Origin: Nitrospirota bacterium | Lineage (GTDB): Bacteria > Nitrospirota > Thermodesulfovibrionia > Thermodesulfovibrionales > UBA6898 | DNA length: 36,597 nt | Direction: 5' to 3' | NCBI GenBank assembly: GCA_004321925.1 | Contig: SCQH01000045.1 | Coordinates: forward strand, 1 to 36,597 | In this document: positions 1,636-18,871 of the stretch, one piece after another | How the letters are laid out: every line of letters begins with the position of its first letter | Position numbering within the stretch: position 1 is the first letter of the stretch | The notes under the pieces: model-generated | Databases searched by the model: none | What the model was told of the DNA's origin: nothing | The model's input: only the letters and a program-made list of their open reading frames with translations | Translations under genes and position numbers: made by a program

Positions 1636-1657
1636 ATCGGTAGAAGGAGGCAGGAAG

Positions 1658-2008
1658 ATGGGTGAATACAGAATGAGCGAGTCGGAGATACCGGGGACAC
1701 TGATCATATCGGGATCACTGGGCATCGAAAACTCGGCACGTATCAAGGAGGCCCTGATGGAGGTCCTTGAGAGGTCTGAGCATATCGTGCTGAAGCTTGA
1801 GAAGGACTCCTCCGTGGACCTGTCTTTCTTGCAGATACTTTGCGCAGCCCATCGCGCTGCAACCCTGAGGCAGAAGACCTTTGAGGTCCTGGGGGCTAAC
1901 GCCGACAATTTTGAGCTGACGGTAACAGACACCGGCTATGCCCGCACCTGCGGGTGTGCCATGGATAAAGACCACACCTGCTTATGGGTACGGGGAGGAA
2001 AGAAGTGA
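1658..2008 (+). CDS. STAS-domain protein with Cys-rich tail
   Basis: This is a 116-residue protein. ATG 1658 is chosen because an AAGGAGG ribosome-binding site sits at 1644-1650. Residues about 10-95 match the anti-anti-sigma/STAS fold: ISGSLGIENSARIKEAL, then KDSSVDLSFLQILCAAHRAA, where the usual phospho-acceptor Ser/Thr region of SpoIIAA-like proteins reads DSSVDLSFLQ. STAS proteins of this size are found in chemotaxis operons, where they may act as phosphorylation-dependent switches or scaffolds; that role is inferred. The last 20 or so residues carry CGC and HTC, a cluster of Cys and His unusual for a STAS protein. Its TGA stop overlaps the GTG start of cheY, so the two are translationally coupled. 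Confidence 0.75.
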   Translation: MGEYRMSESEIPGTLIISGSLGIENSARIKEALMEVLERSEHIVLKLEKDSSVDLSFLQILCAAHRAATLRQKTFEVLGANADNFELTVTDTGYARTCGCAMDKDHTCLWVRGGKK

Positions 2009-2370
2009 GCAAGACGATTATGACAGTGGACGATTCTGCAAGTGTCAGACAGATGGTAAGCTTCACGCTCAAACAGCTCGGACATCATATTGTCGAAGCG
2101 GCCAACGGTATGGACGCCCTGAAAAAGATGGACCTTAAACCGATCGATATGCTGATCACCGACATCAATATGCCCGAACTTGACGGGATAAGCCTTGTGA
2201 AAAAGGTGCGGGAAAACCCTGCATACCGGTTCATCCCGATCATCATGCTGACCACCGAGTCACAGGCAGAGAAAAAACAGGAAGGGAAAGCGGCAGGCGC
2301 AACAGGCTGGATCGTCAAGCCGTTCAGGCCGGACCAGCTTATCGCGGTCGTAAAGAAGGTGCTGGGATGA
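2005..2370 (+). CDS. cheY: CheY-like single-domain response regulator
   Basis: A 121-residue receiver domain and nothing else. The start is placed at GTG 2005, which overlaps the upstream TGA (GTGA) and follows a GGAGG-type site at about 1994-1999; this gives the usual MSKTIMTVDDS beginning. An in-frame ATG at 1984 would add an uncharacteristic N-terminus. The acidic pocket is D9-D10, the phospho-acceptor is D53 in LITDINMPELDG, the conserved Thr lies in MLTTES, and the conserved Lys lies in WIVKPF. In the family, CheA phosphorylates this Asp and the phospho-protein carries the signal to the flagellar motor. Its stop overlaps the start of cheA, so CheA and CheY are probably produced together. 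Confidence 0.92.
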   Translation: MSKTIMTVDDSASVRQMVSFTLKQLGHHIVEAANGMDALKKMDLKPIDMLITDINMPELDGISLVKKVRENPAYRFIPIIMLTTESQAEKKQEGKAAGATGWIVKPFRPDQLIAVVKKVLG

Positions 2371-4484
2371 GCAACGGGCTTGAGGAGCTGAAAAAGACAT
2401 TCAGGGCCGAGGCCATGGAACTCCTGGCCGCCCTTGAGAGTTCGCTCCTGGAACTGGAATGCAGTCCCGGGAACCAGGAGACCATCGGCTCGATCTTCAG
2501 GGTCTTTCATACCCTCAAGGGTACAGGGGCCATGTGCGGTTTTGATGAGATCTCTCATTTTACCCATGAGATCGAGACGCTCTATGACATGGTGCGCTGT
2601 GGGAAGATCACCCCTGACAAGGAGCTCATAGACGTAACCCTTGCTGCGGGCGATCTCATAAAACAGTTCCTGACCCTGGATGAATCCTCAACAGGGGAAC
2701 TCGCAGAGCAGGAGGCCGGACTCCTTGCCGCCTTCAGGAAATTCATGCCTCAGGAAGCCTCGGCCGCGCCTTCCGGCAAGACCTCCGGGGCAGTAGCTCC
2801 CGGTGCGCCACCCGTTCAGGCGAAACAGGTCACCTACCGGGTTCGCTTCAAGCCGTTCAAAGAGATATTCAGGGGCGGGACGAACCCGGTCCTCCTTCTG
2901 AGCGAATTGCGCGGTCTCGGGGACTGCACGATCGCGGCCCATACCGATGCGATCCCCGATATCTATGAGATGGACGCCGAGGCCTGCTATACCTTCTGGG
3001 ACGCCATTTTGACAACTGACAAGGGGCTCGACGCTATCCGGGACATCTTCATCTTTGTTGAAAATGAAAGCGAACTGAAGATCGATATCATCGACAACGG
3101 CGAAAGCTCACTCGGGGTGCTCGATTACAAGAGGCTTGGAGAGATACTCGTCGAAAAAAGAGAGCTCCGCAGGGAAGACCTCGAGGCGGTCCTTCAGACC
3201 CGAAAACTGCTCGGAGAGATGCTCATCGAGAAGGGACTGGTCGATCCTCAGACCGTGGAAATGGCCCTGACCGAGCAGGAACGTCTCAAACAGATACGCG
3301 AGAACCGGCTGAAGATCGAGTCGATGGCCAATATCAGGGTATCGTCGCAGAAGCTCGACAAGCTGGTCAACCTCGTGGGAGAACTGGTGACCGTCCAGGC
3401 GCGTCTCAGCCAGACCTGTGCGGCGAGAAATGACGCCATCCTGCTTTCGATCTCCGAGGAAGTGGAGCGCCTGACCATGGAACTCAGGGACAATACCATG
3501 GACATCCGCATGATGCCGATCGGTTCCACCTTCAGTTCGCTCAAGCGGGTTGTCCGCGACCTTTCAATAGAACTCGGCAAGCAGGTCGAGCTCATCACGG
3601 ACGGGGGTGAGACCGAACTGGACAAAACGGTCATAGAAAAGCTCCACGACCCCCTTGTCCATCTCATCAGAAACAGCCTCGACCACGGGGTGGAACTTCC
3701 GGCTGCACGGGAAAAGGCCGGTAAATCAGCAGGCGGGATCATCCACCTTGCCGCAGCCCACTCAGGAGACCATGTCGTGATACAGATCATGGATGACGGC
3801 AAGGGTCTTGATCCGCGGAAGATACGGGAAAAGGCCGTCAAGAGCGGACTGATCCAGCAGGATGAACAACTCTCCGAGCGGGAGATCTACGAGCTGATTC
3901 TTGCCCCGGGCTTCACCACTGCCGAGGGCGTCACCAGCGTCTCAGGCCGGGGTGTCGGGATGGATGTGGTGAAAAAAGCTGTCGATGCCCTCAGGGGGTC
4001 GATCCATATCGAAAGCCACCTTGGTTACGGAACGACCATTACCCTTGTCCTCCCCCTCACCCTTGCGATCATCGAAGGCCTCCTGGTGAGGATCGGCGGC
4101 GACCACTTTGTGCTCCCCCTCTCCCTGGTGGAAGAGTGCATGGAACTGACCGGAAAGGACATCAGCAGGCACCACGGCAGGCATATCGCCGATGTCCGAG
4201 GGAAAGTGGTGCCGTATATCAGGCTTCGTGAGCACTTCATGACCGAAGGCGCCCGGCCCGAGATCGAGCAGATCGTCATTGTCAACTCAGACAACCACCG
4301 TATTGGGCTTGTGGTCGACAGCGTCATAGGGGGGCATCAGACCGTCATCAAGACCCTGGGCAAGGTCTTTCGGGATATCCGGGGGGTATCAGGGGCCTCG
4401 ATCCTGGGAGACGGCTCTGTCTGCCTGATCGTCGACGTTGAAAAACTTATCCATTCAATAGAGAAAGAGGAGGTGGCCGGATAA
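2367..4484 (+). CDS. cheA: Chemotaxis histidine kinase CheA with MshEN-like insert
   Basis: A 705-residue kinase that overlaps cheY by four bases (ATGA). Domains in order: Hpt at about 1-105 with phospho-acceptor His48 in HTLKGTGA; an Ala/Pro linker; a P2-like alpha/beta region at about 155-245 (KPFKEIFRGG, then DAIRDIFIFVE); a helical insert at about 252-312 with two LGExLxEK motifs (L257 and L282); the dimerisation helices (KLDKLVNLVGEL); the ATPase with N box HDPLVHLIRNSLDHG, G1 DDGKGLD and G2 SGRGVGMD; and a C-terminal CheW-like domain. All catalytic elements are present, so it should be active. The LGExLxEK insert resembles the N-terminal MshEN/GspE-N fold of type II secretion and pilus ATPases, which binds c-di-GMP in some proteins. 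That resemblance is by motif only. Confidence 0.93.
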   Translation: MSNGLEELKKTFRAEAMELLAALESSLLELECSPGNQETIGSIFRVFHTLKGTGAMCGFDEISHFTHEIETLYDMVRCGKITPDKELIDVTLAAGDLIKQFLTLDESSTGELAEQEAGLLAAFRKFMPQEASAAPSGKTSGAVAPGAPPVQAKQVTYRVRFKPFKEIFRGGTNPVLLLSELRGLGDCTIAAHTDAIPDIYEMDAEACYTFWDAILTTDKGLDAIRDIFIFVENESELKIDIIDNGESSLGVLDYKRLGEILVEKRELRREDLEAVLQTRKLLGEMLIEKGLVDPQTVEMALTEQERLKQIRENRLKIESMANIRVSSQKLDKLVNLVGELVTVQARLSQTCAARNDAILLSISEEVERLTMELRDNTMDIRMMPIGSTFSSLKRVVRDLSIELGKQVELITDGGETELDKTVIEKLHDPLVHLIRNSLDHGVELPAAREKAGKSAGGIIHLAAAHSGDHVVIQIMDDGKGLDPRKIREKAVKSGLIQQDEQLSEREIYELILAPGFTTAEGVTSVSGRGVGMDVVKKAVDALRGSIHIESHLGYGTTITLVLPLTLAIIEGLLVRIGGDHFVLPLSLVEECMELTGKDISRHHGRHIADVRGKVVPYIRLREHFMTEGARPEIEQIVIVNSDNHRIGLVVDSVIGGHQTVIKTLGKVFRDIRGVSGASILGDGSVCLIVDVEKLIHSIEKEEVAG

Positions 4485-4508
4485 GCTCATGGCAGCACCG
4501 CTCGATAA
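4482..4508 (+). promoter_or_regulatory. Candidate sigma-28 (FliA) promoter for the MCP-cheW pair
   Basis: TAAG at 4482-4485, a 15-base spacer and CTCGATAA at 4501-4508 resemble the flagellar sigma-28 pattern TAAA-N15-GCCGATAA (3 of 4 and 6 of 8 matches). It starts at the end of cheA and lies about 60 bases before the MCP start, where a chemoreceptor promoter would be expected. The match is by eye only. Confidence 0.4.
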
Positions 4509-4569
4509 TTTTATATACATTACCCCTGACAGGGACATATTACATTAAATTTTTTCTCAAGGAGGGCTC

Positions 4570-6276
4570 ATGCTTAAGAATTTAAAGATAGGATCAAGAC
4601 TGTTAGTAGGCTTCGGGATTGTCGTGCTTATCACTCTTGCGATAGGTGGCTCTGGATACTGGGGGGTCGATTCCATAACATCAAAAGTGATCACCATGCT
4701 CCAGACCGATTCCAATGTCTCTGAAAATGCTTCCCGTGCCCGCGCCAATGTCAACGCACTGCGGAGGTACGAGAAAGACCTTTTCATAAACATCGGGAAC
4801 AAGGAGAAAGAAGAAGACTATCACAAGAAATGGCAGGAGCAGCAGGACCATCTCAACAAGAGGATGGCTGAACTGGACAAAGTTGTTTACATCAAGGAAG
4901 AGAAGGAGCAGCTCAAGGACATGCAGACCGAGATGAAGGCTTATGACGCCGGCTTCCTGAAGGTCTATAACCTTATCAAGGCAGGCAGCATAAAGACCAC
5001 GCAGGAAGCGAATAATGCCATAAACGAATACAAGGACTCAGTACATAAACTCGAATCATCAGCGAAGAGTCTTGCTGAAGCAGGCAATGCTCGTATGGAG
5101 GGTGAGGAACCTATCTTGAAGGCCTTTGCAAAAAGGATCACCTTCATTATGCTCATGCTTCTCCTTGTTGCCATGGCCCTGAGCATCGGCATTGCCATGT
5201 TCATCACCAACAGCATTGTGAACCCCTTGACAAAGGGAGTGGTGGTAGCCAATGCCCTTGCCGAAGGGGACCTGATGCTGAACGTTGAGGTAACGAGCAA
5301 GGACGAGACAGGGCAGCTGCTGCTTGCGATGAAGAACATGGTGGAGAAGCTCAGGGAGATCGTGCTGGACGTGAAGACCGCCTCTGACAACGTGGCCTCA
5401 GGGAGCCAGCAGATGAGCTCCAGTTCAGAGGAGATGTCCCAGGGCGCCTCAGAGCAGGCGAGCTCCGTGGAAGAGGTCTCGTCGTCGATGGAAGAGATGG
5501 TATCAAACGTGCGCCAGAATGCGGACAATGCGCAGCAGACAGAGAAGATAGCCCTGAAATCTGCCGGTGACGCCCGCGAAAGCGGCAGGGCGGTCGGCGA
5601 GACCGTGACGGCGATGAAAGAGATAGCCGGCAAGATCTCAATCATCGAAGAGATAGCCCGCCAGACAAACCTCCTTGCCCTGAACGCGGCTATCGAGGCA
5701 GCGCGTGCAGGCGAGCACGGCAAGGGCTTTGCGGTCGTTGCCTCTGAGGTCAGGAAGCTCGCAGAACGGAGCCAGACAGCAGCGGCCGAGATCAGCAAGC
5801 TCTCGTCGTCGAGCGTACAGGTGGCAGAGATGGCCGGCCAGATGCTGACGAAGCTCGTCCCTGACATACAGAAGACGGCCGAGCTGGTCCAGGAGATCAA
5901 CGCAGCCAGCGCAGAGCAGAACAGCGGGGCAGAGCAGATCAACAAGGCTATCCAGCAGCTCGACCAGGTGGTGCAGCAAAACGCCAGCGTGGCAGAGGAG
6001 ATGTCCTCCACTGCCGAGGAACTTGCCGCCCAGGCAGAAAACCTCCAGAGCTCGATAGAGTTCTTCAAGATCGGGGGGGCAGAAAGAAGCAGGGTTGCTG
6101 CAGCACGGCCTGCCCCCCACATGGTAGCGCACAGGACAAAGTTCGCGCATTTGACCCACCCGGTGCAGAAACCCGGCAAGGCCGTGGCCGCAAAGCCGGC
6201 GGTTCAGAAGGGGTTTGCCCTGGACATGGGCGACACGGGCAGGGACGCCGAAGACAGTGAATTCGAGAAGTTTTAG
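4570..6276 (+). CDS. Methyl-accepting chemotaxis protein (4HB sensor)
   Basis: A 568-residue transmembrane receptor with a strong AAGGAGGG site just before ATG 4570. TM1 is at about residues 11-32. A helical periplasmic region follows at about 35-185, rich in Lys and Glu, of the four-helix-bundle MCP type. TM2 is at about 190-213, a HAMP linker at about 212-265, and then the long cytoplasmic signalling hairpin. The tip is canonical: EEIARQTNLLALNAAIEAAR, then GFAVVASEVRKLAERS. The SSSSEEMSQGASEQASS region is a typical adaptation-helix segment. There is no C-terminal NWETF-like tether; the tail ends EDSEFEKF after an Ala/Pro/Lys-rich linker. It binds CheA/CheW through the tip and is the likely substrate of the CheR, CheD and CheB encoded nearby. 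The ligand cannot be read from sequence. Confidence 0.93.
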   Translation: MLKNLKIGSRLLVGFGIVVLITLAIGGSGYWGVDSITSKVITMLQTDSNVSENASRARANVNALRRYEKDLFINIGNKEKEEDYHKKWQEQQDHLNKRMAELDKVVYIKEEKEQLKDMQTEMKAYDAGFLKVYNLIKAGSIKTTQEANNAINEYKDSVHKLESSAKSLAEAGNARMEGEEPILKAFAKRITFIMLMLLLVAMALSIGIAMFITNSIVNPLTKGVVVANALAEGDLMLNVEVTSKDETGQLLLAMKNMVEKLREIVLDVKTASDNVASGSQQMSSSSEEMSQGASEQASSVEEVSSSMEEMVSNVRQNADNAQQTEKIALKSAGDARESGRAVGETVTAMKEIAGKISIIEEIARQTNLLALNAAIEAARAGEHGKGFAVVASEVRKLAERSQTAAAEISKLSSSSVQVAEMAGQMLTKLVPDIQKTAELVQEINAASAEQNSGAEQINKAIQQLDQVVQQNASVAEEMSSTAEELAAQAENLQSSIEFFKIGGAERSRVAAARPAPHMVAHRTKFAHLTHPVQKPGKAVAAKPAVQKGFALDMGDTGRDAEDSEFEKF

Positions 6277-6287
6277 GGGGTGATGAT

Positions 6288-6791
6288 ATGAGCGTAACAG
6301 GAGTTACTGAGACAACGCAGTATCTGACATTCAAGCTTGAGGAAGAGGTCTTTGCCCTGGACATCTCGAAGGTGCGGGAGGTCCTCGATTTTACGGCAGT
6401 GACGAAGGTGCCGCGCACGCCGGAGTTCATGCGGGGGGTGATAAACCTCAGGGGCAATGTGGTGCCGGTGGTGGATATGCGGCTTAAGTTCGGTATGACG
6501 AAGACCGAAAACACCGTCAACACCTGCATCATCATCGTGGAGATAGCCCTTGACGGCGACAAGACCGTGCTCGGCGCGCTGGCGGATTCGGTGCAGGAGG
6601 TGATCGACCTCGAACCGGACAAGATAGAGCCCGCCCCGAAGATCGGCACGAGGCTGCGGACCGAGTTCATCCGGGGCATGGGGAAGAGGGACGAACAGTT
6701 CGTCATCATCCTCGACATCGACAAGGTCTTCTCCGCCGATGAGCTCTCTCTTGTCCAGGACTCCGGGCAGAAGGCCTCGGCAGATCATTAG
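6288..6791 (+). CDS. cheW: CheW coupling protein
   Basis: A 167-residue CheW domain covering nearly the whole protein. Diagnostic segments are YLTFKLEEEVFALDISKVREVL near the N-terminus, then RGVINLRGNVVPVVDMR and FVIILDIDKVF. CheW is the cytoplasmic adaptor that joins receptor tips to CheA. It lies 11 bases after the MCP stop with a GGGGGTGAT site, so the two form a pair probably driven by the same promoter. The last 20 residues are a short polar tail. No key feature is missing. Confidence 0.93.
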   Translation: MSVTGVTETTQYLTFKLEEEVFALDISKVREVLDFTAVTKVPRTPEFMRGVINLRGNVVPVVDMRLKFGMTKTENTVNTCIIIVEIALDGDKTVLGALADSVQEVIDLEPDKIEPAPKIGTRLRTEFIRGMGKRDEQFVIILDIDKVFSADELSLVQDSGQKASADH

Positions 6792-6976
6792 GACCTGAGA
6801 GAACATCAGCGTCGTCATCCCCGAACAGACGGGAAACCCTTGCCTGCTGGATGTTATCTGCTATGCGGGTTCCCGCCTGGATCGGGCCTCTGAGGTTCGA
6901 TCGGGTCATTTCTCCCGGTGAGTTCGCCTTCGTGCGGATGCAGGCATAATGGTTTTATTACCGATATCACTATACT

Positions 6977-7857
6977 ATGAACGTTTCTGAAAACACAGGA
7001 TACAAATACTGCGGCAAGATCATGGCTGCGAAGCTCTCGGACAGGGACTTCCAGCGGCTGAGCCATTTTATCCATGAGGAATGCGGCATCAAGATGGCCG
7101 TGCCTAAAAAGGTGATGCTCGAGGCCCGACTGAAAAAAAGACTCCGGGTCCTGGGCCTGGAGACCTTTGATGAATACTGCGACCTGCTCTTCAGTCCTTT
7201 GGGGATGCAGCAGGAACGGCTTAATATGATCAATGTGGTGACGACTAACAAAACGGACTTTTTCCGTGAGCCGCGGCACTTCGAATACCTTCTCCAGCAG
7301 GCCATCCCCGAGCTTATACGGCTCTGCGGTGCTGGGATGAGAAGACGCCTTGCTGTCTGGTCTGCCGGGTGCTCGACCGGTGAGGAACCCTACACTCTGG
7401 CAATGGTGCTGAGCGAATTTGCGGCCCGCACCCCCGGGTTCAATTTCAGCATACTCGCTACCGATATCTCGACCGCCGTGCTCGAAAAGGCGGTCAGGGG
7501 GGTCTACAAAGAGGAAAGGCTCGAGACCGTTCCGCAGATGTACCGGAAGAACTATTTTATGAAGAGCAAGGACAGAGGAAGGGCATTGGTGAGGGTCATG
7601 CCTGAAGTCAGATCTCTCGTCAGGTTCCGGCGGCTGAACTTTCTTGACCATGACTTCGGCATGCGGGAGCACCAGGACATTATCTTCTGCCGCAACGTCA
7701 TCATCTATTTCGACCGCCCGACGCAGGAAAAGGTGCTCGGAAGGCTCTGCGGGCATCTGATTCCGGGGGGCTACCTCTTCATGGGACATTCCGAGACCCT
7801 GAGCAGCCTGGACCTCCCCCTTGTTTCAGTCGGGCCCATGGTCTACCGAAGGCCCCT

Positions 7858-7861
<4 letters not shown>
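6977..7861 (+). CDS. cheR: Chemotaxis methyltransferase CheR
   Basis: A 294-residue protein (279 if the ATG at 7022 is used). It has the N-terminal helical CheR domain (LSDRDFQRLSHFIHEECGI, NVVTTNKTDFFREPRHF) and the SAM-binding domain (VWSAGCSTGEEPYTLA, ILATDIS, IIFCRNVIIYFD). It methylates receptor glutamates using SAM. Neither start has a clear ribosome-binding site. The conserved domain begins right after ATG 7022 (MAAKLSDRDF), and TATACT lies at 6971-6976 immediately before ATG 6977, so the true start may be 7022. The stop overlaps the start of cheD. A 185-base gap separates it from cheW, suggesting a separate transcript. Confidence 0.92.
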
Positions 7862-9461
<1,600 letters not shown>

Positions 9462-9519: not shown

Positions 9520-10299
9520 ATGAAAAATTCTCGCTTTAAGGACAAAGTCGCTTTAATAACAGGTAGTTCAAGGGGCATCGGCAGCGCCATCGCCCTGAAG
9601 TTTGCAGAGGCCGGAGCCGATGTTGTCCTCAATTACCGCAAGCAGGGAGGCTCATCCGAGGCCCAGGGGAAGAAGCTCTGCGAAACGATCCGGGGGATGG
9701 GACGCAGGGCCTTCCTTATACAGGCCGACATCTCTCAGAAGGAGTCGGTCAGGAGCCTGTTCGCTCAGGCCGCCGAGGCCTGCGGACGGTTGGACTTCCT
9801 GGTGCTGAATGCTGCCCGGACACCCTTTAAGCCCCTCGAAAAACTGCTCGAACGTGAGATCCGGCAGCTGGTCGACACCAATTACATCGGGAACCTCTTC
9901 TGCATCCAGGAGGCGGTCCCGCAACTGGCGCAACAGCGGGGTTCGATCGTTTTTGTATCGAGTCTCGGCAGCCGCTTCTATAACGTCTCCTACCCGCTGG
10001 GCAGCATGAAAGCCGCCATGGAGTCGGTCGTCCGGGATTGCGCCGAGGGGTTAAAGGCTAAAAGGATATCGGTCAACGCGGTCTGCGGGGGCATCGTCAA
10101 AACAGATTCCTTCAAGGTCCTGCGGCAGTTATGGGAAGAGCTTGAGTTCATCCCTGAGGACCTCTTCGTTGAGCCTGAAGAGATAGCCGATGTTGTCCTG
10201 TTCCTCTGCAGCAGTGACAGCAGGGCGATATGCGGCCAGACCATTGTTGTGGACCACGGCTTCAGCAACAGGCTCTATCAGCCGATGCAGAAAAAATAA
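9520..10299 (+). CDS. FabL-like enoyl-ACP reductase / SDR
   Basis: A 259-residue short-chain dehydrogenase. The cofactor loop is TGSSRGIG at the N-terminus. The middle reads LVLNAART where classical SDRs have NNAG, as in FabL-type enoyl reductases. The region SLGSRFYNVSYPLGSMKAA and the later VNAVCGGIVKTDSF closely follow the Bacillus FabL pattern. The candidate catalytic pair is Tyr158 and Lys164, with only five residues between them (YX5K). FabI/FabL enzymes usually have YX6K and ketoreductases YX3K, so this spacing is unusual. Likely role: reduction of the enoyl-ACP double bond with NAD(P)H in the locus that follows. There is no ribosome-binding site before ATG 9520, and an AT-rich TATATT stands about 6 bases upstream, so the message may be leaderless. 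A divergent ketoreductase is the alternative. Confidence 0.75.
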   Translation: MKNSRFKDKVALITGSSRGIGSAIALKFAEAGADVVLNYRKQGGSSEAQGKKLCETIRGMGRRAFLIQADISQKESVRSLFAQAAEACGRLDFLVLNAARTPFKPLEKLLEREIRQLVDTNYIGNLFCIQEAVPQLAQQRGSIVFVSSLGSRFYNVSYPLGSMKAAMESVVRDCAEGLKAKRISVNAVCGGIVKTDSFKVLRQLWEELEFIPEDLFVEPEEIADVVLFLCSSDSRAICGQTIVVDHGFSNRLYQPMQKK

Positions 10300-10326: not shown

Positions 10327-10890
10327 ATGGCACAGAATATCGTTACTGAGGAAAAGGTCATCGAAGAGGTCAAGAAGGCCGTAGCTGAAACACTAAGCAG
10401 TGATGTCGCCGCGATCCAGCCTGACAACTCCATGATAAGGGACCTTGGCGCCGAATCGCTTGATTTCCTCGACATCAACTATCGGCTTGAGCAGGCCTTC
10501 GGGATCAAGATGGCCCGGCATTTCATCCTCGAACATATAGAAGAGATGTTCGGCGAGGGCACGGCCATAGATGAGAACGGGCAGCTCACCGAAAAGGCGG
10601 TCAGGTTCCTTCAGGCCCGCTACGGGGACAGCTTCCCCGGCTTCAAACAGAACATGGACATGGACGAGGTCCCTGCCCTCTTCACCATCCGGACAATGGC
10701 CGGCGGGGTCCTGGATATCCTTGATACGCTGCCGGAGAAATGCTCACAATGCGGAAATGCCGCATGGAAGTCTGACAACGGTGTCAAGATCATCTGCGGT
10801 TCCTGCGGGGAGCAGGCGGTCTTCACAAACGGCGACGACCTAATAAAGCAATGGCTCACGAAGATACAGGACGACAAAAAGATCTGCTGA
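10327..10890 (+). CDS. Acyl carrier protein fused to a zinc ribbon
   Basis: A 187-residue protein; ATG 10327 is chosen for the AAGGAG site six bases upstream. Residues about 5-85 are an acyl carrier protein with the phosphopantetheine Ser44 in DLGAESLDFLD. It is longer than a standard ACP (about 80 residues). The C-terminal half carries a four-Cys knuckle: C139-x2-C142, 14 residues, C157-x2-C160 (KCSQCGNAAW and IICGSCGEQ), typical of a zinc ribbon. The middle (about 90-130) is a helical connector. Role: carries the growing acyl chain for the adjacent ketosynthases, reductases and dehydratases. The ribbon is probably a protein docking module, since nothing points to DNA or RNA binding. It is 27 bases after the enoyl reductase gene. 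Confidence 0.85.
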   Translation: MAQNIVTEEKVIEEVKKAVAETLSSDVAAIQPDNSMIRDLGAESLDFLDINYRLEQAFGIKMARHFILEHIEEMFGEGTAIDENGQLTEKAVRFLQARYGDSFPGFKQNMDMDEVPALFTIRTMAGGVLDILDTLPEKCSQCGNAAWKSDNGVKIICGSCGEQAVFTNGDDLIKQWLTKIQDDKKIC

Positions 10891-10923
10891 TCCGGGGCCG
10901 TGCATCGGGCGGTGACCGCAGAC

Positions 10924-12207
10924 ATGCCTGAACGCCGCGTCGTCATCACCGGGTACGGGGCGATCACCCCCCTTGGAAAGAGCGCTCACGAGACCTTTGA
11001 TCGTGCATCAGCCGGACTTTCAGGGGTCGACTATATCAGATCGTTCGAGACAAAGGGTCTGCCCTGCCAGGTCGGGGGCGAGATCGATGACCGCTGGATC
11101 GACGAACTCAAGGACCCTGCCGCACAGCGTCTGTCCAAATTTTCGTCCCGCGGCCTGAAACTGATGATGATCGCAACAGCCGAAGCGGCAAGGTCGGCGC
11201 AGCTCGATTCGGTCCTGCAGAGAGAGAAGATCGGCGTCTCTCTGGGATCCCATGGCGACAACCCTGCAATTGCCGATGTTCAGCACCTCCAGCGCTTTTA
11301 CGACGGCCAGGGCAACTGGGACATGAAGGGACTGATGGAGACCGGCGGTTATTCCTTCCTCAACTTTTTCAGAAGAAAACCGGATGCTGCGACGTCACTG
11401 CTCTCGATGCAGTTCAACTGCAAGGGACCGAACCTCTCCTTCGTCTCGGCCTGTGCTGCCGGCGCTCAGGCGGTCGGCGAGGCTTACCGGTTGATACAGG
11501 AGGGCTCCGCGGATCTTATGATCGCCGGCGGGTGCGAGGCGACACTCAACTTCTCAGGCTTCATCGGCTTTGTCCTTATTAAGGCCCTTGTCGAAAAATA
11601 CCCCACGCCGCAGAAAGCCTCACGCCCCTTTGACAGAAAGAGGAACGGGTTTGTCATGTCTGAAGGCGCCGGCAGTCTGGTCCTTGAGGACCTTGAGCAT
11701 GCACGGGCGCGGGGCGCGGCCATCTTTGCAGAGATACGCGGCTATGGCGACTCAGCTGATGCATACCGTATCACGGACACGCACCCAAAGGGTGACGGCG
11801 CCCTGCTTGCCATGAAGGGTGCCCTTGATGACGCCGGCCTGGACGTCAGCGACATCGACTACATCAACGCGCACGGCACCTCGACAGTACAGAATGACCT
11901 TACCGAGACCCGTGCCATAAAGGCTCTCTTCGGTGACCGCGCCGGGAAGATCCCCGTCAGTTCGAACAAATCAATGCTCGGCCATACAATTGCCGCCGCC
12001 GGCGCTATCGAATGCATCCTGACCACCATCGGGATGAACCGTTCGATCATCCTGCCGACGATCAACCAGGAGCATCATGACCCGAAATGCGACCTGGATT
12101 ATGTGCCGAATGAAGCACGCAGTCAGGGCTATCGCTACGCCCTTTCGAACTCCTTCGGTTTTGGCGGACAGAACGCCTCTCTCTGCATCGGCAGATTCGA
12201 GGGCTAG
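10924..12207 (+). CDS. Beta-ketoacyl-ACP synthase (FabF-like), active-site complete
   Basis: A 427-residue FabF-type ketosynthase. ATG 10924 gives the standard MPERRVVITGYGAITPLG beginning; a GTG at 10900 would add eight atypical residues. The catalytic triad is complete: Cys177 in FVSACAAGAQAV, His317 in INAHGTST and His354 in SMLGHTIAAAG. The C-terminal GFGGQNAS signature is present. It should condense an acyl group with malonyl-ACP. It is paired with the downstream Cys-less homologue, an arrangement like ketosynthase/chain length factor heterodimers of type II polyketide systems. It resembles the third ketosynthase in this locus (shared CDLDYVPN/K segment), suggesting an internal duplication. 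Confidence 0.9.
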   Translation: MPERRVVITGYGAITPLGKSAHETFDRASAGLSGVDYIRSFETKGLPCQVGGEIDDRWIDELKDPAAQRLSKFSSRGLKLMMIATAEAARSAQLDSVLQREKIGVSLGSHGDNPAIADVQHLQRFYDGQGNWDMKGLMETGGYSFLNFFRRKPDAATSLLSMQFNCKGPNLSFVSACAAGAQAVGEAYRLIQEGSADLMIAGGCEATLNFSGFIGFVLIKALVEKYPTPQKASRPFDRKRNGFVMSEGAGSLVLEDLEHARARGAAIFAEIRGYGDSADAYRITDTHPKGDGALLAMKGALDDAGLDVSDIDYINAHGTSTVQNDLTETRAIKALFGDRAGKIPVSSNKSMLGHTIAAAGAIECILTTIGMNRSIILPTINQEHHDPKCDLDYVPNEARSQGYRYALSNSFGFGGQNASLCIGRFEG

Positions 12208-12213
12208 GGACCC

Positions 12214-13482
12214 GTGGCCGCAACCGATATCGTCATCACCGGCGCCGGCGTCGTAAGCGCTCTCGGGAATACTCCGGAGGACCTATGGTCTGCCCTTCTC
12301 GCCTCGCAGACCGGCATCAGGCCTGTTGACGGATTTCCGGAGGGATCCTCCCCTCTGGCTGCGGCGCAGGTCAGTGGCATCGACCCTGCTGAGCTCGGCA
12401 TCCCGCGGCGTGATGCACGGATCATGGGCAGGCATTCCGGCATGCTGATCAAAAGCAGCCGTGATGCCTATCTGCGCGCAGGGCTCGACAGCCGGTCGGT
12501 ACCCGCGGAAGAGACCGCGTTCTTTGCCGGGATGGGGATGGTGGATTACCGGATGGACGATCTGATGCCGGCCCTGCTGAGATCGCTCAACCAGGATGGC
12601 TCGATAGACTACGACAGATTTTATTCGACCGGCTACCAGGAGATATTTCCGCTCTGGCCGCTTTCGATGCTGAACAACATATCCTTCTGTCAGGCAGCCA
12701 TCAACCTTGATATTCGCGGCGAGAATACCGTCTTTTCTCCCCATGCCGATTCAGGGGCCCAGGCGATAGCTGAAGGCGCCAGGACCGTGAGCGAGGGACG
12801 GGCAGCGGCAGTCCTTGCAGGAGGGGTCAGCGAGGTCGTTTCCCCACTGAGCATTGCCCGGGCCGGGATCTTCGGCCTTTTGGGTGAGCCCGGAAAGGGC
12901 AGTATGACCTGCCGTCCCTTTGGAGAGGACAGATCAGGATCGGTCCTGGGTGAGGGCTGCGGCATTGTCTGCCTTGAGACCCGCTCCTCAGCAGAGGCGC
13001 GCGGGGCAGCCTTCAGCACCATGTTCATGGGGTATGGCAATTCGTGCGGCAAAGAGACCGGGGCAGCCTGCCCTTCGGTCGATGCTATTGTGCAGGCGAT
13101 GGAGCAGGCCCTCGATTCTGCGGAACTGAATCCGGCCGATATCGGCCTCATTATCGCCCACGGGGACGGGACCCTGCAGGGCGACAGGAACGAGGCAGAG
13201 GCGCTCAGGAGGGTATTTCAGGCGGGCCTTCCCGTCTATGCCTCAAAAGCAGCTCTCGGGAACTGCCTTGCGGCAGGACCGGCGATCGATATCGTCCTCG
13301 GCTCATACATGATCGCTCAGGGGATGATCCCCGCTGTGTTTGGCCTGGACACCCCTTCCGGCTCTCTTGGTCTCAGGGTCGTCACCCAGGGACCTTTGAG
13401 GGCAAGACCCGGAAAGGTGCTTATCAATGCCTTCAGCTATGAAGGACAATGTACATCCCTGATAATCGGGGCAGCTGACTGA
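12214..13482 (+). CDS. Ketosynthase-like protein lacking catalytic Cys (chain length factor-like)
   Basis: A 422-residue protein starting at GTG 12214, six bases after the preceding ketosynthase. It keeps the thiolase-fold layout (VITGAGVVSALGNTPEDLW, IIAHGDGT, and AFSYEGQCTSLIIG near the end). The active site is lost: Ala178 stands where the nucleophilic Cys belongs (SPHADSGAQAI), and Asn350 replaces the second His (ALGNCLA). His316 is retained. It cannot do the usual condensation. By analogy with KS-beta/CLF proteins it probably dimerises with the upstream ketosynthase and shapes the chain-length tunnel. That role is inferred from the mutations and the gene pairing. Length is normal and there is no frameshift, so it is not a decaying gene. 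Confidence 0.85.
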   Translation: MAATDIVITGAGVVSALGNTPEDLWSALLASQTGIRPVDGFPEGSSPLAAAQVSGIDPAELGIPRRDARIMGRHSGMLIKSSRDAYLRAGLDSRSVPAEETAFFAGMGMVDYRMDDLMPALLRSLNQDGSIDYDRFYSTGYQEIFPLWPLSMLNNISFCQAAINLDIRGENTVFSPHADSGAQAIAEGARTVSEGRAAAVLAGGVSEVVSPLSIARAGIFGLLGEPGKGSMTCRPFGEDRSGSVLGEGCGIVCLETRSSAEARGAAFSTMFMGYGNSCGKETGAACPSVDAIVQAMEQALDSAELNPADIGLIIAHGDGTLQGDRNEAEALRRVFQAGLPVYASKAALGNCLAAGPAIDIVLGSYMIAQGMIPAVFGLDTPSGSLGLRVVTQGPLRARPGKVLINAFSYEGQCTSLIIGAAD

Positions 13483-13494
13483 CAGGAGGAAAAG

Positions 13495-13962
13495 GTGAGA
13501 TTTCTTTTTTACGACACCGTTCATGAGTTGACCAAGGGGAAGTATATCAGGGGGGCCAAATCCTTCGCCCTCTCTGAAGAATACCTGCGGAGGCACTTCA
13601 GTAAAAAGGCCCTTGTCCCCGGCGTCATCCATATAGAGGCGATGGCCCAGCTCCTGGGCTGGGCCGTGATCCATGCCCATGACTTCAGGATCTCGGCCGT
13701 CATGTCCCTTATCGAGGGTGTTACGGTACATCCCCGGCTGAAACCGGGGGTGACGGTCGATATCCACGGGGAGATCATCTCGACCTCAAAAAGGGATTCG
13801 CTCGGCCGGGCATGGATGACCCTTGAGGGTGAGACCGTCGCCTCGATGGACCGGATCATCTACAGCCATTTCCATAAGGTCGACCCCACTGAACTGCTTA
13901 ACCGGTTCTGCTACTACAGCGGTATGGACAGCTCAGCCGCTCAGGGAATATCTGAGGGATAG
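13495..13962 (+). CDS. FabZ-like 3-hydroxyacyl-ACP dehydratase 1
   Basis: A 155-residue single hotdog-fold protein starting at GTG 13495 behind a GAGGAAAAG site. The FabZ signature is visible as EYLRRHFSKKALVPGVIHIEAMAQ, with catalytic His34 and Glu48. The usual FP at the motif start is FS here. It would remove water from 3-hydroxyacyl-ACP to give enoyl-ACP. It follows the chain length factor-like gene by 12 bases and precedes the third ketosynthase by four. A second dehydratase in the locus has His and Glu at identical positions, so the two may handle different chain lengths or form a heterodimer. Confidence 0.86.
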   Translation: MRFLFYDTVHELTKGKYIRGAKSFALSEEYLRRHFSKKALVPGVIHIEAMAQLLGWAVIHAHDFRISAVMSLIEGVTVHPRLKPGVTVDIHGEIISTSKRDSLGRAWMTLEGETVASMDRIIYSHFHKVDPTELLNRFCYYSGMDSSAAQGISEG

Positions 13963-13966
13963 ACCT

Positions 13967-15265
13967 ATGCGCCACGCCCCGAATCGCAAAGTGGTCGTCA
14001 CCGGGCTCGGGCTGGCGACCTCGCTCGGCCTCGATCTCGATACCTGCTGGGAAAAGGCCCTCGCCGGTGTCTCAGGGGTTAAAAGAATTTCCTATCCCGG
14101 TGCGGAGAGATCTCCGGTCCAGGCGGTCGGAGAGGTGGGCGCGGAGGACTGGCAACGGATCCGGGCGGCGTTCAGAGAATACGCAGAGTGTGAAGGTGAG
14201 CGCAGGACCCTCTTTGCCTTATGGTCGGCAGAGGCGGCCCTTAAAGACAGCGGGGTCCTTGATTCAGACCTGAGCCGGAAACGTTTTGGCGTCAGCCTTG
14301 CGGCGGGGCTCGGCATCAACAGGCTCGAGGATATTCAGAGATGGATGCGCGGGGACAGGACATTCGATTATGCCGCCTTCGGAAGGGACTATGCCGGGGT
14401 GCATGCGGAATCGATCATGAGGAACAATTCAAACCGCCCCCCGGCAGTCATTGCAGACCGTCATGCCCTGGCCGGGTATAACTGCACGATCACCACGGCC
14501 TGCGCATCCGCCACACAGGCGATCGGGGCCGGCTTCAGGGCAATCCAGCGCGGTGACGCTGACCTGATCCTGGCCGGAGGCGCTGATTCGATGATCAACC
14601 CTGTCGGTCTGATCTTCTTCGTTCTCCTCGGCGCCGCCGCTGTAGCACCCGACGACCCTGCCACGCTCTGCAGGCCGTTTGACCGCAAAAGGTCCGGACT
14701 GGTCATGGGCGAAGGCGCGGGGATCGCCGTGCTCGAGGAGGAATCGCATGCGCTTAGACGCGGAGCGCGGATATATGCGGAGGTCGCCGGGTACGGCTCC
14801 TCAATGGACGCCTATCAGGTGACCGCCCCTCACCCCAGGGGCATTGGGGCCGAGGCCTCGATGAGTCGGGCGCTCAGGGACTCCGGCATGGGCCCCGGTG
14901 ATATAGATTATATAAACGCACACGGGACCAGCACAAAACTGAACGATGCGGCTGAAACCGCCGCGATAAAGAACATCTTCGGGGAGCATGCAAAGGCCCT
15001 GGCGATAAGCTCAAGCAAGTCCCTCGTCGGCCATCTGCTTGCGGCCTCGGGCGGACCGGAATTTGTCTTTACGGTCATGAGCACGCGGCATGACCTGGTC
15101 CATCCGACTATCAACCTTGAGAACCCTGACCCGAAATGCGACCTCGACTACGTGCCGAAGCATAAGAGAGAAAAGAGAATCAGGGCCGCCCTCTCGAATT
15201 CCTTCGGGTTCGGCGGCCAGAACGCATCTATCATCGTCAGGAAATACATGCAGGAGGAGAGATAA
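13967..15265 (+). CDS. Beta-ketoacyl-ACP synthase (FabF-like), second active enzyme
   Basis: A 432-residue ketosynthase. ATG 13967 gives a beginning (MRHAPNRKVVVTGLGLATSLG) that matches the family; the open frame further upstream lies inside the dehydratase gene. The triad is complete: Cys179 in TTACASATQAI, His319 in INAHGTSTK and His356 in KSLVGHLLAAS. The ending GFGGQNASIIV is canonical. It condenses acyl-ACP with malonyl-ACP. Its C-terminal third is very like that of the first ketosynthase in the locus. The ketoreductase gene starts four bases after its stop. Confidence 0.9.
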   Translation: MRHAPNRKVVVTGLGLATSLGLDLDTCWEKALAGVSGVKRISYPGAERSPVQAVGEVGAEDWQRIRAAFREYAECEGERRTLFALWSAEAALKDSGVLDSDLSRKRFGVSLAAGLGINRLEDIQRWMRGDRTFDYAAFGRDYAGVHAESIMRNNSNRPPAVIADRHALAGYNCTITTACASATQAIGAGFRAIQRGDADLILAGGADSMINPVGLIFFVLLGAAAVAPDDPATLCRPFDRKRSGLVMGEGAGIAVLEEESHALRRGARIYAEVAGYGSSMDAYQVTAPHPRGIGAEASMSRALRDSGMGPGDIDYINAHGTSTKLNDAAETAAIKNIFGEHAKALAISSSKSLVGHLLAASGGPEFVFTVMSTRHDLVHPTINLENPDPKCDLDYVPKHKREKRIRAALSNSFGFGGQNASIIVRKYMQEER

Positions 15266-15268
15266 CAC

Positions 15269-16027
15269 ATGGGGATAACCATCGACCTGACCGGGAAGAT
15301 AGCGCTTGTGACCGGAGGCGGCCAGGGCATCGGCAGGGAATGCTGCAGGTCACTTTCACGTGCCGGGGCAACCGTCATTGTGAATTACAGCAGATCGAAG
15401 GACGAGGCAGACACCCTGCTTCAGGAGATCTCGCAGGAGGGTGGCGTTGCCGAGGCCTGTCAGGCCGATATATCAGTCCCTGAGGAGGTCCAGCAGCTCT
15501 TTGACCACATAAAGAAGAAACATGGCAGAATAGATATACTGGTCAACAACGCCGGCATCGTCAGGGACAAGCTCCTCCTGAGCATGGAACTTGCCGACTG
15601 GGACAGGGTCCATGACATCAACCTCAGGGGGGCCTTTCTCTGCACCAGGCTCGCCGCCGAAATGATGATGGCCAACCATGCCGGGAAGATCATCAATATC
15701 TCCTCGATCGGTGCGGTTCGCTGCTCGCGCGGACAGACGAATTATGCCTCCTCAAAAGGCGGCCTCATATCCTTTACCAGGGCCTGCGCGGTTGAGCTGT
15801 CGGGCAAGGGCATACAGGTAAACGCTGTTCTGCCCGGCATGATCGTGACCAAAATGAGCAGCCGCGTCAGAAAACGGGCGGGAGATGACCTGCTCAAGAC
15901 GATTCCTGCCGGCCATTTCGGCGAGCCTGCGGATATCGCCGGTGCGGTCGTCTTCCTTGCCTCAGGCCTTTCTGACTATATAACCGGCCAGACACTCCCC
16001 GTTGACGGCGGCATGAGCGTATCGTGA
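15269..16027 (+). CDS. fabG: 3-oxoacyl-ACP reductase FabG
   Basis: A 252-residue classical SDR with cofactor loop TGGGQGIG, NNAG (LVNNAGIVRD), the Ser in INISSIGA, and the catalytic Tyr159 and Lys163 in NYASSKGG. The C-terminal VDGG motif is present. Length and motifs are typical of FabG, which reduces 3-ketoacyl-ACP with NADPH. Because it sits between a ketosynthase and a dehydratase, it is probably dedicated to this locus rather than being the housekeeping copy. That is an inference from position. Confidence 0.9.
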   Translation: MGITIDLTGKIALVTGGGQGIGRECCRSLSRAGATVIVNYSRSKDEADTLLQEISQEGGVAEACQADISVPEEVQQLFDHIKKKHGRIDILVNNAGIVRDKLLLSMELADWDRVHDINLRGAFLCTRLAAEMMMANHAGKIINISSIGAVRCSRGQTNYASSKGGLISFTRACAVELSGKGIQVNAVLPGMIVTKMSSRVRKRAGDDLLKTIPAGHFGEPADIAGAVVFLASGLSDYITGQTLPVDGGMSVS

Positions 16028-16103
16028 TACAATTCTGTCGGGGATGCATCTGCCTCTCATACGCAGGCTTACGCCGGGGCAACGGTCATCCTGCCGGGGA
16101 ACG

Positions 16104-16112
16104 TGCTATAAT
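16104..16112 (+). promoter_or_regulatory. Possible internal extended -10 promoter
   Basis: TGCTATAAT is a perfect extended -10 (TG-N-TATAAT) in the 127-base gap between fabG and the second dehydratase, in an operon whose other gaps are under 30 bases. No good -35 is visible, as is common for extended -10 promoters. It could give separate expression of the second dehydratase, the Cys-less ketosynthase-like gene and the acyltransferase. Confidence 0.35.
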
Positions 16113-16154
16113 TTCTGGGATACAGACTATCATCAGGAGGCGTTAGAACCATAT

Positions 16155-16607
16155 ATGCGGTATTTGCTTGTTGATCACATCACTGAATGGAAGGCCGGGG
16201 AATCGATCCGGGGCGTAAAGAATGTTGCCATGAGCGAGGATTTTCTCGAATTCCATTTTCCCAAGAACCCTATCATGCCGGGCGTCATGCTCCTGGAGGC
16301 CATCACCCAGCTTACCGGCTGGCTTGAGGCAGCCTCCTCGGACTTCACGCAATGGTTCCTGATCAGCGGGGTGAACAAATGCAGTTTCTACGGCTTCGCC
16401 TTTCCGGGGGACCAGGTCGAACTCAGGGTTGAATTCGTTTCCAGCCCCGGTGAGAACAGAAAGGTCTTCAAAGGGACCGGCATGGTTCAGGGCAAGAAGA
16501 AGATAGCGGTCGAGTTTGAAGGCAGCCTGGTGCCGTTCGATGAGCTTGAGGATGGCGAAGAGCAGAGAAGGTTCTTTGATCTCCTGACACGGAACCTGGG
16601 GCTATAA
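16155..16607 (+). CDS. FabZ-like 3-hydroxyacyl-ACP dehydratase 2
   Basis: A 150-residue hotdog protein. ATG 16155 gives MRYLLVDHITEWKAG, which parallels the first dehydratase of the locus; the open frame before it has no family-like sequence. An AGGAGG lies at 16135-16140, rather far (14 bases) from the start. The motif EFHFPKNPIMPGVMLLEAITQ carries catalytic His34 and Glu48 and is closer to standard FabZ than the first copy. It dehydrates 3-hydroxyacyl-ACP. The TAA stop is directly followed by the ATG of the next ketosynthase-like gene. Confidence 0.86.
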   Translation: MRYLLVDHITEWKAGESIRGVKNVAMSEDFLEFHFPKNPIMPGVMLLEAITQLTGWLEAASSDFTQWFLISGVNKCSFYGFAFPGDQVELRVEFVSSPGENRKVFKGTGMVQGKKKIAVEFEGSLVPFDELEDGEEQRRFFDLLTRNLGL

Positions 16608-17897
16608 ATGGACAGGCGGGAGGTCGTGATCACCGGCATGGGGCTTGTCACCCCGCTCGGCAGCACGGTGTCAGAGAACTGGGCGAATATGAAGGCCCTC
16701 AAGACAGGGCTCGCCTGTTATCCGAAGGCCGGTCTGCCCGCCTTCATGGAATATCTCGGCAAGATCTCTCAGGTATCGGTCCCTGAGGAGATCCCCCAGA
16801 AGATCTCCGGACAGATGAAATTCCTGAGCCGGGGATCATTGCTCGGGTTCATTGCTGCAGCAGAGGCGGCCGCACAGGCCGGTTATGCCGGGGCGGATGT
16901 CACCGCCGGCAGGCGCGCCCTCTATATAGCGTCCGGCGACTTTACGAAGGTCGGGTACGATTTTCTCTACCCGGCGGTCAAGGATGCCTCACTGCACAAC
17001 TGGAGGGAGCTCGATCATGCAAAACTTAATGATGCCGCCCTCAGCAAGGTCAATCCTTTCTTTCTGCTGGAGTCGCTCCTTAACAACCTTTTCAGCTTTC
17101 TCTCGGCCTTCCTTGAGTCCATGGGGCCCAGCACCAGCGTTGCAAGCCTTTCGCCCTGCGGGGGATATGCGATAGAGCTGGCCTGCAGGTCGATCAGGCA
17201 GAACAGGGCAGATATTGCCGTTGCCGTCGGGTGCGGCAACTGGATAACCGAGATCCCGCTTTATGAGATCGACGGCCTCGGCATCGCTTCTCAGTGCAGG
17301 GACGGCGTCGGGTCCTTCAGACCGTTTGACCGGAGGAGGGACGGCTTTATGACCGGGGAGGGAGGCGCGGCCCTGGTCCTTGAAACGCCGGAAAGCGCCG
17401 AAAGAAGGGGGGCGCCTGTCTTCGGGAGGATCAGGGGTGTCGGCAACTGCATTGAGTTCGTCCCGGGAAGGGGATTGACCGTTCCGCCGCTCGTCAGCAG
17501 AAGATGCATGGAGATCGCCATGGCTGATGCCGGCATGAACTTCAATGAACTCGGCTTTATCACGCCCCATGGGAGCGGCACACAGAAAGGCGACGCCTCA
17601 GAGCTCATGTCGATCGCCCGGGTCCTTGAGGATAACAAAGCAGCAGTCCCTATCAGCGGGATGAAGGCCTATACCGGGCATCTCGGGGCTGCAAGCGATA
17701 TCGCTGAGGTGATCATGGGAATTGCTGCAGGCCGGGAGCATATCGTCCCTGCCACGCTTAATTTTTCTGAGCCGGACAGGTCCCTGCCGGACCTGAACAT
17801 ATCCGGCGGCCATCAGGTTTCAGACAAAGCCGCCTTTCTTTCAACCAGCTACGGAGTGGGCGGGCAGTCCTCTTCCGTGGTTGTAGAAGTGTTGTAG
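16608..17897 (+). CDS. Ketosynthase-like protein with Cys-to-Ser active site
   Basis: A 429-residue thiolase-fold protein of the FabF family (MDRREVVITGMGLVTPLGSTV, then SYGVGGQSSSVVVE at the end). In the nucleophile region it reads ASLSPCGGYAI: aligned on GGYAI, Ser182 is where the Cys belongs, and a Cys (Cys184) stands two residues later. Both histidines remain (His321 in TPHGSGT, His358 in YTGHLGA). Condensation by the normal mechanism is therefore unlikely. It could be a chain length factor, a decarboxylase-type priming protein, or a protein with a shifted nucleophile. The central region (SLLNNLFSFLSAFLE) is hydrophobic and unlike the other ketosynthases here. It abuts the second dehydratase with no gap. 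Confidence 0.83.
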   Translation: MDRREVVITGMGLVTPLGSTVSENWANMKALKTGLACYPKAGLPAFMEYLGKISQVSVPEEIPQKISGQMKFLSRGSLLGFIAAAEAAAQAGYAGADVTAGRRALYIASGDFTKVGYDFLYPAVKDASLHNWRELDHAKLNDAALSKVNPFFLLESLLNNLFSFLSAFLESMGPSTSVASLSPCGGYAIELACRSIRQNRADIAVAVGCGNWITEIPLYEIDGLGIASQCRDGVGSFRPFDRRRDGFMTGEGGAALVLETPESAERRGAPVFGRIRGVGNCIEFVPGRGLTVPPLVSRRCMEIAMADAGMNFNELGFITPHGSGTQKGDASELMSIARVLEDNKAAVPISGMKAYTGHLGAASDIAEVIMGIAAGREHIVPATLNFSEPDRSLPDLNISGGHQVSDKAAFLSTSYGVGGQSSSVVVEVL

Positions 17898-17932: not shown

Positions 17933-18871
17933 ATGCCTGAGAAGCCAAAGAAATCACGGATACTTCAGCTCGTTGAATATGCCGCTGCCTATGTCTTCAT
18001 CACGATCTTCAGGGCACTTCCTTTCTGGCTGACGAACCTGATCTCCGGATTCCTCGGGAATCTGCTCTATTACGTTGTCCCGCGGCGCAGGACTATAGCG
18101 GTCACGAACATCAGCGCTGCCTTTTCAGGCATGCCGGCCTACGAGGTCCGCAGGCTTGCACGCGAAAGCTGCAGGGCCCTCTTTCTTACCGCATTTGAGA
18201 TCATGAAGTCACAGAGCCTCTTCAGCTCCCCGGATGCGAGGGAAAAGATACGGGACACGGCGGACAATCTTGAGGAGCTTTTCCAAAAGGCAAAGAAGAT
18301 ACATGACGGGTCCGGGGGCTGCATCTTTGTTACCCCCCATATCGGCAACTGGGAACTTCTTCCGGCGGTCAGCTCCCTGATCGGCATCCCTCTGGTCATC
18401 GTGGCACGTCCGCTCGATAATAAATACCTTGAAAAGCTTTTTTATGAGAACCGCACTGCCAGCGGTCAGATGGTGATACCGAAGAAGAACGCCCTCTTCG
18501 TTCTCCAGAGGACCCTTCAGAAGGGCAAGTCGATCGGCATGCTGACCGACCAGAGCACAATGAAAGGCCTCCCGGTGGAATTCTTCGGCAGAAAGGCCTT
18601 GACAACCCCGGTGCCGGCAGTGCTCGCGATGACCAAGAACCGCCCCATCGTGGTGGTCGCCTGCTGCCGCATTGCTGATTTCAGGTTTGAAGCCTTTGTC
18701 TCGGACCCTATCTGGCCCGGCGAATATCAGAACGAAAAGGACGAGCTGCTCAGGATCACCCGGCTGATGAACAAAGAGATGGAGGCGATTGTCAGGAAGC
18801 ATCCCGAACAGTATCTCTGGATGCATGACCGCTGGAAGACCTATGGCGGCTCGAAAGAACTGATGTCCTGA
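17933..18871 (+). CDS. LpxL/HtrB-family lysophospholipid/lipid A acyltransferase
   Basis: A 312-residue membrane-associated acyltransferase. A hydrophobic N-terminal segment (about residues 13-50) anchors it. The family HX4E motif is His136-Glu141 in TPHIGNWELL, and the later MLTDQSTMKGLPVEFFG matches the LpxL/HtrB core. Members transfer acyl chains from acyl-ACP to lipid A precursors or other amphiphiles at the inner membrane. As the last gene of a fatty-acid-like assembly locus, 35 bases after the last ketosynthase-like gene, it probably moves the locus product onto a lipid acceptor. The acceptor is unknown, and a housekeeping lipid A role cannot be excluded. Confidence 0.83.
   Translation: MPEKPKKSRILQLVEYAAAYVFITIFRALPFWLTNLISGFLGNLLYYVVPRRRTIAVTNISAAFSGMPAYEVRRLARESCRALFLTAFEIMKSQSLFSSPDAREKIRDTADNLEELFQKAKKIHDGSGGCIFVTPHIGNWELLPAVSSLIGIPLVIVARPLDNKYLEKLFYENRTASGQMVIPKKNALFVLQRTLQKGKSIGMLTDQSTMKGLPVEFFGRKALTTPVPAVLAMTKNRPIVVVACCRIADFRFEAFVSDPIWPGEYQNEKDELLRITRLMNKEMEAIVRKHPEQYLWMHDRWKTYGGSKELMS

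Follow-up and report, generated by a model that had tools for sequence, protein, structure and literature searches.

The rhizobial AcpXL is a specialised acyl carrier protein (ACP) for the very-long-chain acyl groups of lipid A, and PDB entries 2kw2 and 3lmo are structures of one such protein, RpAcpXL. Dedicated ACPs also belong to aryl polyene and highly reducing type II polyketide systems, which combine a ketosynthase (KS) and a cysteine-less KS with a dehydratase (DH), a ketoreductase (KR) and an LpxL-family acyltransferase. Extended ACPs of about 130 aa without a ribbon, for which we know of no established name, were found in this work in multi-ketosynthase clusters of Desulfobacterota. 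The rhizobial acpXL-lpxXL cluster encodes FabZ, two FabF-type proteins, a reductase and an LpxL-family acyltransferase (PMC11901934), while in DUF35 proteins (PhlB, thiolase/HMG-CoA synthase complex) a zinc-ribbon protein is found within a thiolase-fold acyl-enzyme complex (PMC6392133).

The window, by which we mean the whole 36,597-nt stretch of Nitrospirota DNA analysed here (genome G000), encodes an ACP with a four-cysteine C-terminal tail, designated ACP-ZnR, within a cluster of fatty-acid-synthesis-like genes. The features discussed below are:

9520..10299, + strand: SDR1, FabL-like SDR of enoyl-ACP reductase type (PF13561; best NCBIfam model FabL, below cut-off; upstream neighbour in 39/39 loci)
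10327..10890, + strand: ACP-ZnR gene, 187-aa ACP with insertion, zinc ribbon and C-terminal helix (ORF and translation, PF00550, 38 aligned ribbon-bearing homologues)
10327..10509, + strand: ACP helices I and II, residues 1-61 (PF00550 match; model helices 8-23 and 47-58)
10510..10659, + strand: insertion splitting the ACP fold, roughly residues 62-111 (helices 67-75 and 89-99 in the model; ~50-residue gap against ordinary ACPs; also in ribbonless relatives)
10660..10728, + strand: final helices of the ACP, residues 112-134 (112-118 and 121-132 in the model; structural alignment)
10729..10830, + strand: zinc ribbon, residues 135-168 (invariant Cys columns; two-strand ribbon in models)
10741-10743, 10750-10752, 10795-10797 and 10804-10806, + strand: Cys codons of the ribbon
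10831..10887, + strand: C-terminal helix GDDLIxxWLxxxQ, residues 169-187 (invariant columns; model helix 169-184)
10900..12207, + strand: KS1, FabF-like ketosynthase with catalytic Cys-His-His (downstream neighbour in 39/39 loci)
12214..13482, + strand: KS2, ketosynthase-like, without the catalytic Cys, chain-length-factor-like (profile match and catalytic position; orthologue in 13/13 genomes tested)
13495..13962, + strand: DH1, FabZ-like dehydratase (PF07977)
13967..15265, + strand: KS3, FabF-like ketosynthase with catalytic Cys (profile match; start taken at the Met ahead of the conserved N terminus)
15269..16027, + strand: KR, FabG-like ketoreductase (profile matches)
16049..16111, + strand: AcpS gene remnant comprising the final 20 codons plus stop (55% identical to L021 AcpS over its residues 112-131; the gene is complete at this position in relatives)
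16155..16607, + strand: DH2, FabZ-like dehydratase (PF07977; FabZ models below cut-off)
16608..17897, + strand: KS4, ketosynthase-like and chain-length-factor-like, with Ser or Pro in place of the catalytic Cys (profile match, active-site column)
17933..18871, + strand: LpxL-family acyltransferase (PF03279; lipid A lauroyl acyltransferase models below cut-offs)

Like AcpXL, ACP-ZnR is longer than a normal ACP, and its cluster resembles the rhizobial one in part, in having the same enzyme classes (PMC11901934). At the same time, ACP-ZnR differs from AcpXL in its ~50-residue insertion, zinc ribbon and C-terminal helix, and its cluster has more genes, an SDR in place of the alcohol dehydrogenase, and two KS/cysteine-less pairs. 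RpAcpXL (2kw2) is the best solved match of the ACP-ZnR profile (E 1.3e-10), whereas the AcpXL equivalog model NF005079 scores 41.2 bits against a cut-off of 83; we propose by analogy that ACP-ZnR may work like AcpXL yet falls outside the AcpXL model. The enzyme classes of aryl polyene systems are likewise present, but ACP-ZnR clusters are set apart by an invariable enoyl-reductase-like SDR and the zinc-ribbon ACP itself. The ribbonless extended ACPs share with ACP-ZnR the insertion, the last helix, the motif DLGAESLDxLDI and a multi-KS neighbourhood, but they end at about residue 132, have no Cys and lack an SDR1 neighbour. With DUF35 proteins only the idea is shared, a zinc ribbon amid thiolase-fold acyl enzymes: the ribbon of ACP-ZnR is C-terminal on an ACP, with no OB fold and no DUF35 match, and the two are not homologous on present evidence.

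Sequence and predicted fold of ACP-ZnR

The ACP-ZnR frame runs from an ATG at 10327, with an AAGGAG ribosome-binding site 5' of it, to a TGA ending at 10890. PF00550 (PP-binding) covers residues 14-70 (E 1.6e-6; 28.7 bits against a cut-off of 20.8), the phosphopantetheine serine, Ser44, is encoded at 10456-10458, and the ribbon cysteines are arranged as C139xxC142-14-C157xxC160. An earlier sequence-only reading had described an ACP with an intact Ser44 followed by a CxxC-14-CxxC knuckle, and both elements stand, Ser44 and all four cysteines being invariant over 39 sequences (see below). Domain searches confirmed the carrier domain at 14-70 but gave no name to the remainder, as no Pfam or NCBIfam model reaches its curated cut-off over residues 71-187. 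With the tail alone (residues 135-187), the best Pfam models, PF13451 and PF11781, both stay below their cut-offs, and neither DUF35 nor a rubredoxin-like zinc ribbon is among the matches to E 5. The core and insertion together are very acidic, with a mean net charge of -13; the mean net charge of the tail is -1.6, making nucleic-acid binding by the tail unlikely.

AlphaFold2 predicted the full-length protein, as a monomer, with a pLDDT of 90.3 and a pTM of 0.86. In structural alignments, standard ACPs span about residues 2-136 of this model with a gap of ~50 residues, showing that the ACP fold continues past residue 80. For example, 77/80 residues of the Thermus ACP 1x3o align over 6-133 at 2.0 Å, and 98/101 residues of RpAcpXL align over 7-147. 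A ladderane-type identity was considered and rejected: amxACP (7auf) aligns at Z 8.7, yet generic ACPs score equally high. The last helix of the fold is 121-132, with some 50 residues (62-111) inserted ahead of it, and the "helical linker" of the sequence-only reading turns out to be part of the ACP fold, which ends at about residue 134 and has the insertion between its helices.

Beyond that point, model strands 147-150 and 154-157 lie between the two Cys knuckles in the geometry of a zinc ribbon, and the Cys4 site would, from its sequence, bind structural Zn(II). Residues 131-180 have a pLDDT of 92-96 in the full-length model, while the tail modelled by itself reaches a mean pLDDT of only 77 and a pTM of 0.43; these confidence values alone suggest that the ribbon tail packs on the ACP, since it is predicted confidently only as part of the whole protein. 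A Foldseek search with the ribbon alone gave only weak matches (ribosomal ribbons, TFIIB; E > 0.2). Considering that the ribbonless relatives have both the insertion and the last helix but nothing beyond, the ribbon and C-terminal helix are an added module on an extended ACP core.

Conservation and distribution

Our species-genome scan yielded 39 loci, in Nitrospirota/Thermodesulfovibrionia except for one Desulfosarcina MAG and two records labelled simply as Bacterium BMS3 isolates. Alignment of the window protein with 38 ribbon-bearing homologues (60-85% identical to it) showed that the four Cys, Ser44, W147 and, in the C-terminal helix, W176 and further residues are invariant. The four-Cys motif is present in all 39 rows, in 34 of them with the exact 2/14/2 spacing, while columns 1-134 contain two Cys in total. 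The invariance of Cys, Ser44 and W147 across homologues rules out chance or a frame artefact. In loci L047, L052, L064 and L090 the first knuckle is CxC, not CxxC, with all four Cys kept. Non-conservation of the cysteines, which the sequence-only reading had named as evidence against itself, was thus not seen among these homologues, although ribbonless relatives with the same core do exist.

Searches of sampled genomes added two further genomes on the Desulfobacterota side, together with divergent full-length members from Nitrospirota. All of them bear the ribbon; W176 is replaced in two of these, again with the Cys motif kept. In an even sample of Nitrospirota, 21/295 genomes matched at E <= 1e-12, one of the matches being ribbonless. 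Locus L073 (G261:C210) encodes an ACP with a similar core and a different, much longer extension without a ribbon. Plasmid-borne spread was considered and rejected, the search having matched one record, 34% covered at 34% identity. Comparison of same-genus pairs, with synonymous sites near saturation, gave pN values of 0.15-0.22 for the ribbon, 0.04-0.11 for the C-terminal helix and 0.04-0.06 for the core, the stretch of ribbon between its Cys being the fastest-changing segment. ACP-ZnR is a real, conserved family, largely of Thermodesulfovibrionia (Nitrospirota). Full-text search of a partial literature collection found no zinc-ribbon ACP described earlier, and within that scope ACP-ZnR is an undescribed variant of specialised ACP.

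Partner enzymes, priming and pathway product

The order SDR1-ACP-KS1 was seen in 39/39 loci. FabL (3oic) is the only solved structure matched by SDR1 at E<=1e-35; the SDR1 stretch at 9988-10011 encodes a conserved [AS]YPLGSMK in nearly all copies, and its Tyr-to-Lys spacing is presumably one residue shorter than in FabL/FabI. KS1 keeps the Cys-His-His set in every copy. With the register judged by eye, the catalytic Cys is absent from every copy of KS2 and replaced by Ser or Pro in KS4, so that both look like chain-length factors; KS1/KS2 and KS3/KS4 show the pairing with a Cys-less ketosynthase homologue by which highly reducing type II PKS are recognised.

About a third of the loci have the window order on the KS2 side, some of them ended by contig ends, and the rest have the trio alone. 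Trio-only genomes carry a KS2 orthologue elsewhere (13/13 tested, window type included). This KS2 heads a KS2-DH1-KS3-KR-DH2-KS4-LpxL block in G063, G534 and G631, a KS2-to-KS4 block (KS2-DH1-KS3-KR-DH2-KS4) with no visible LpxL in G040, and a shorter KS2-DH1-KS3 block in G060 and G062; a motif scan of the distant KS2 blocks found no second ACP. An LpxL-family gene closes the cluster in the window and in several other loci. Upstream, a chemosensory operon (MCPs, CheY-like, CheA, CheW, CheR, CheD, CheB) fills positions 1-9461 of the window and ends 59 bases before SDR1, and MCP genes adjoin the KS2-DH1-KS3 block in two other genomes (L104, L106). A link between signalling and the ACP-ZnR lipid pathway is possible.

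Twelve regions have an extra ORF between KR and DH2, intact in L021 at 15733-16125, and the three tested were all holo-ACP synthases above the TIGR00516 cut-off. In the window this gene is reduced to a remnant reading SASHTQAYAGATVILPGNVL-stop (16049-16111). Most ACP-ZnR genomes tested have two AcpS, and each of two relatives without ACP-ZnR has one. Ser44 would be primed by AcpS to give the holo form. No AcpS-type gene was found in G000, where an assembly gap is possible; the genome does have an Sfp-type transferase, located close to another KS locus. That specialised locus (L117, 5428-11957, on G000:C26) encodes an Sfp-type phosphopantetheinyl transferase, a male-sterility-type reductase, an AMP-binding enzyme, a ketosynthase and a weak ACP-like match.

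The adjacency of SDR1, ACP and KS1 in every locus, together with a cluster AcpS additional to the housekeeping one, indicates that ACP-ZnR very probably serves as dedicated carrier in a secondary pathway of the type II fatty-acid or polyketide-like kind. The idea in the sequence-only reading that this ACP is reserved for the local pathway is therefore well supported, with the trio in 39/39 loci and many clusters having their own AcpS.

As to what the pathway makes, nine loci have lipid A genes immediately upstream of the trio: lpxD-fabZ-lpxA-lpxI-gnnA-gnnB precedes it in L034, L035, L038, L039 and L041, gnnA-gnnB in L027, L032 and L033, and gnnB in L026 (here gnnA is our label for a UDP-GlcNAc 3-dehydrogenase-like gene and gnnB for one encoding a DegT-type aminotransferase). 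In many other loci the trio has no lipid A genes alongside, and lpxA is present in 61/61 relatives, so that presence of lipid A genes is uninformative as a predictor. From the gene neighbourhood in this part of the loci, the product is rather likely to be an unusual lipid-A-type acyl chain, which is probably very long or partly unsaturated. KS1/KS2 and KS3/KS4 would act as ketosynthase/chain-length-factor pairs, KR, DH1, DH2 and SDR1 would process the growing chain, and LpxL would transfer the finished chain to lipid A or a similar outer-membrane glycolipid.

LpxL-family enzymes also work in aryl polyene clusters, and the product could instead be a secondary metabolite, for instance a polyene, of the kind made by highly reducing type II polyketide clusters, with LpxL loading a lipid other than lipid A. 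The two KS/Cys-less pairs, two dehydratases and one ketoreductase do resemble aryl-polyene-type systems, and the ribbonless ACP relatives sit in multi-ketosynthase clusters. Against this, the enoyl-reductase-like SDR is always present as a partner and lipid A genes stand beside the trio in nine loci. Moreover, the conserved cluster has no aromatic or other recurring starter-unit gene, AcpS being the only extra conserved ORF that recurs. We consider a polyene-type product unlikely, if still worth keeping in mind.

Role of the ribbon

SDR1 is present in all ribbon loci examined and in 0/8 ribbonless loci; given this co-occurrence, SDR1 is a candidate partner in addition to KS1. Packed on the extended ACP, the ribbon and C-terminal helix would form a rigid cap and specify partners, first KS1 and SDR1, and so keep the carrier from housekeeping enzymes. 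Docking is something we infer, and we give about an even chance to the ribbon being such a partner-specifying cap. The reading as a whole, an AcpXL-like dedicated carrier with a partner-specifying ribbon cap that serves a lipid-A-type chain, is in our judgement similarly balanced. One locus, L058 (2549-4451), is an exception, having SDR1 and KS1 with the ribbon absent and the ACP continuing in frame into KS1, an arrangement that looks like a deletion fusing the two genes. If real, covalent tethering of ACP to KS1 may have replaced the ribbon there; equally, this may be an assembly error on a 4.4-kb contig.

The ribbon might also merely stabilise the fold, capping an enlarged and very acidic ACP with no part in partner choice. 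The charge of the core and insertion would fit this, as would the prediction of the tail with confidence only together with the ACP, and the ribbon residues besides Cys and Trp change fastest, a pattern that suits a stabiliser as well as an interface. At the same time, relatives with the same insertion do without a ribbon, the C-terminal helix is conserved to the degree of a binding surface, and the presence of the ribbon tracks SDR1, so we see stabilisation alone as a possible but less favoured account. The sequence-only reading had also offered redox or metal control, in which the Cys4 site would act as a switch on the carrier. Sites of this type can be responsive to oxidants or metals, but the profile and fold hints, weak as they are, point to zinc ribbons of the ordinary structural sort, and the loci examined show no recurring redox partner next to the trio; this idea found no support and is very improbable.

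We tentatively suggest that the built-in zinc ribbon of ACP-ZnR could be an address label docking on KS1 and SDR1, which would let two type II fatty-acid assembly lines run in one cell without cross-talk and would serve a lipid-A-type acyl pathway, so far undescribed, in Nitrospirota. It is an open question in the field how a discrete carrier protein reaches its proper enzymes in a cell that has several carriers, and ACP-ZnR, with its conserved Cys4 tail, strict partner pair and natural tailless relatives, is a ready test case. These results also point to an acyl pathway, unstudied and probably of the outer membrane, that a large group of uncultured bacteria possesses.
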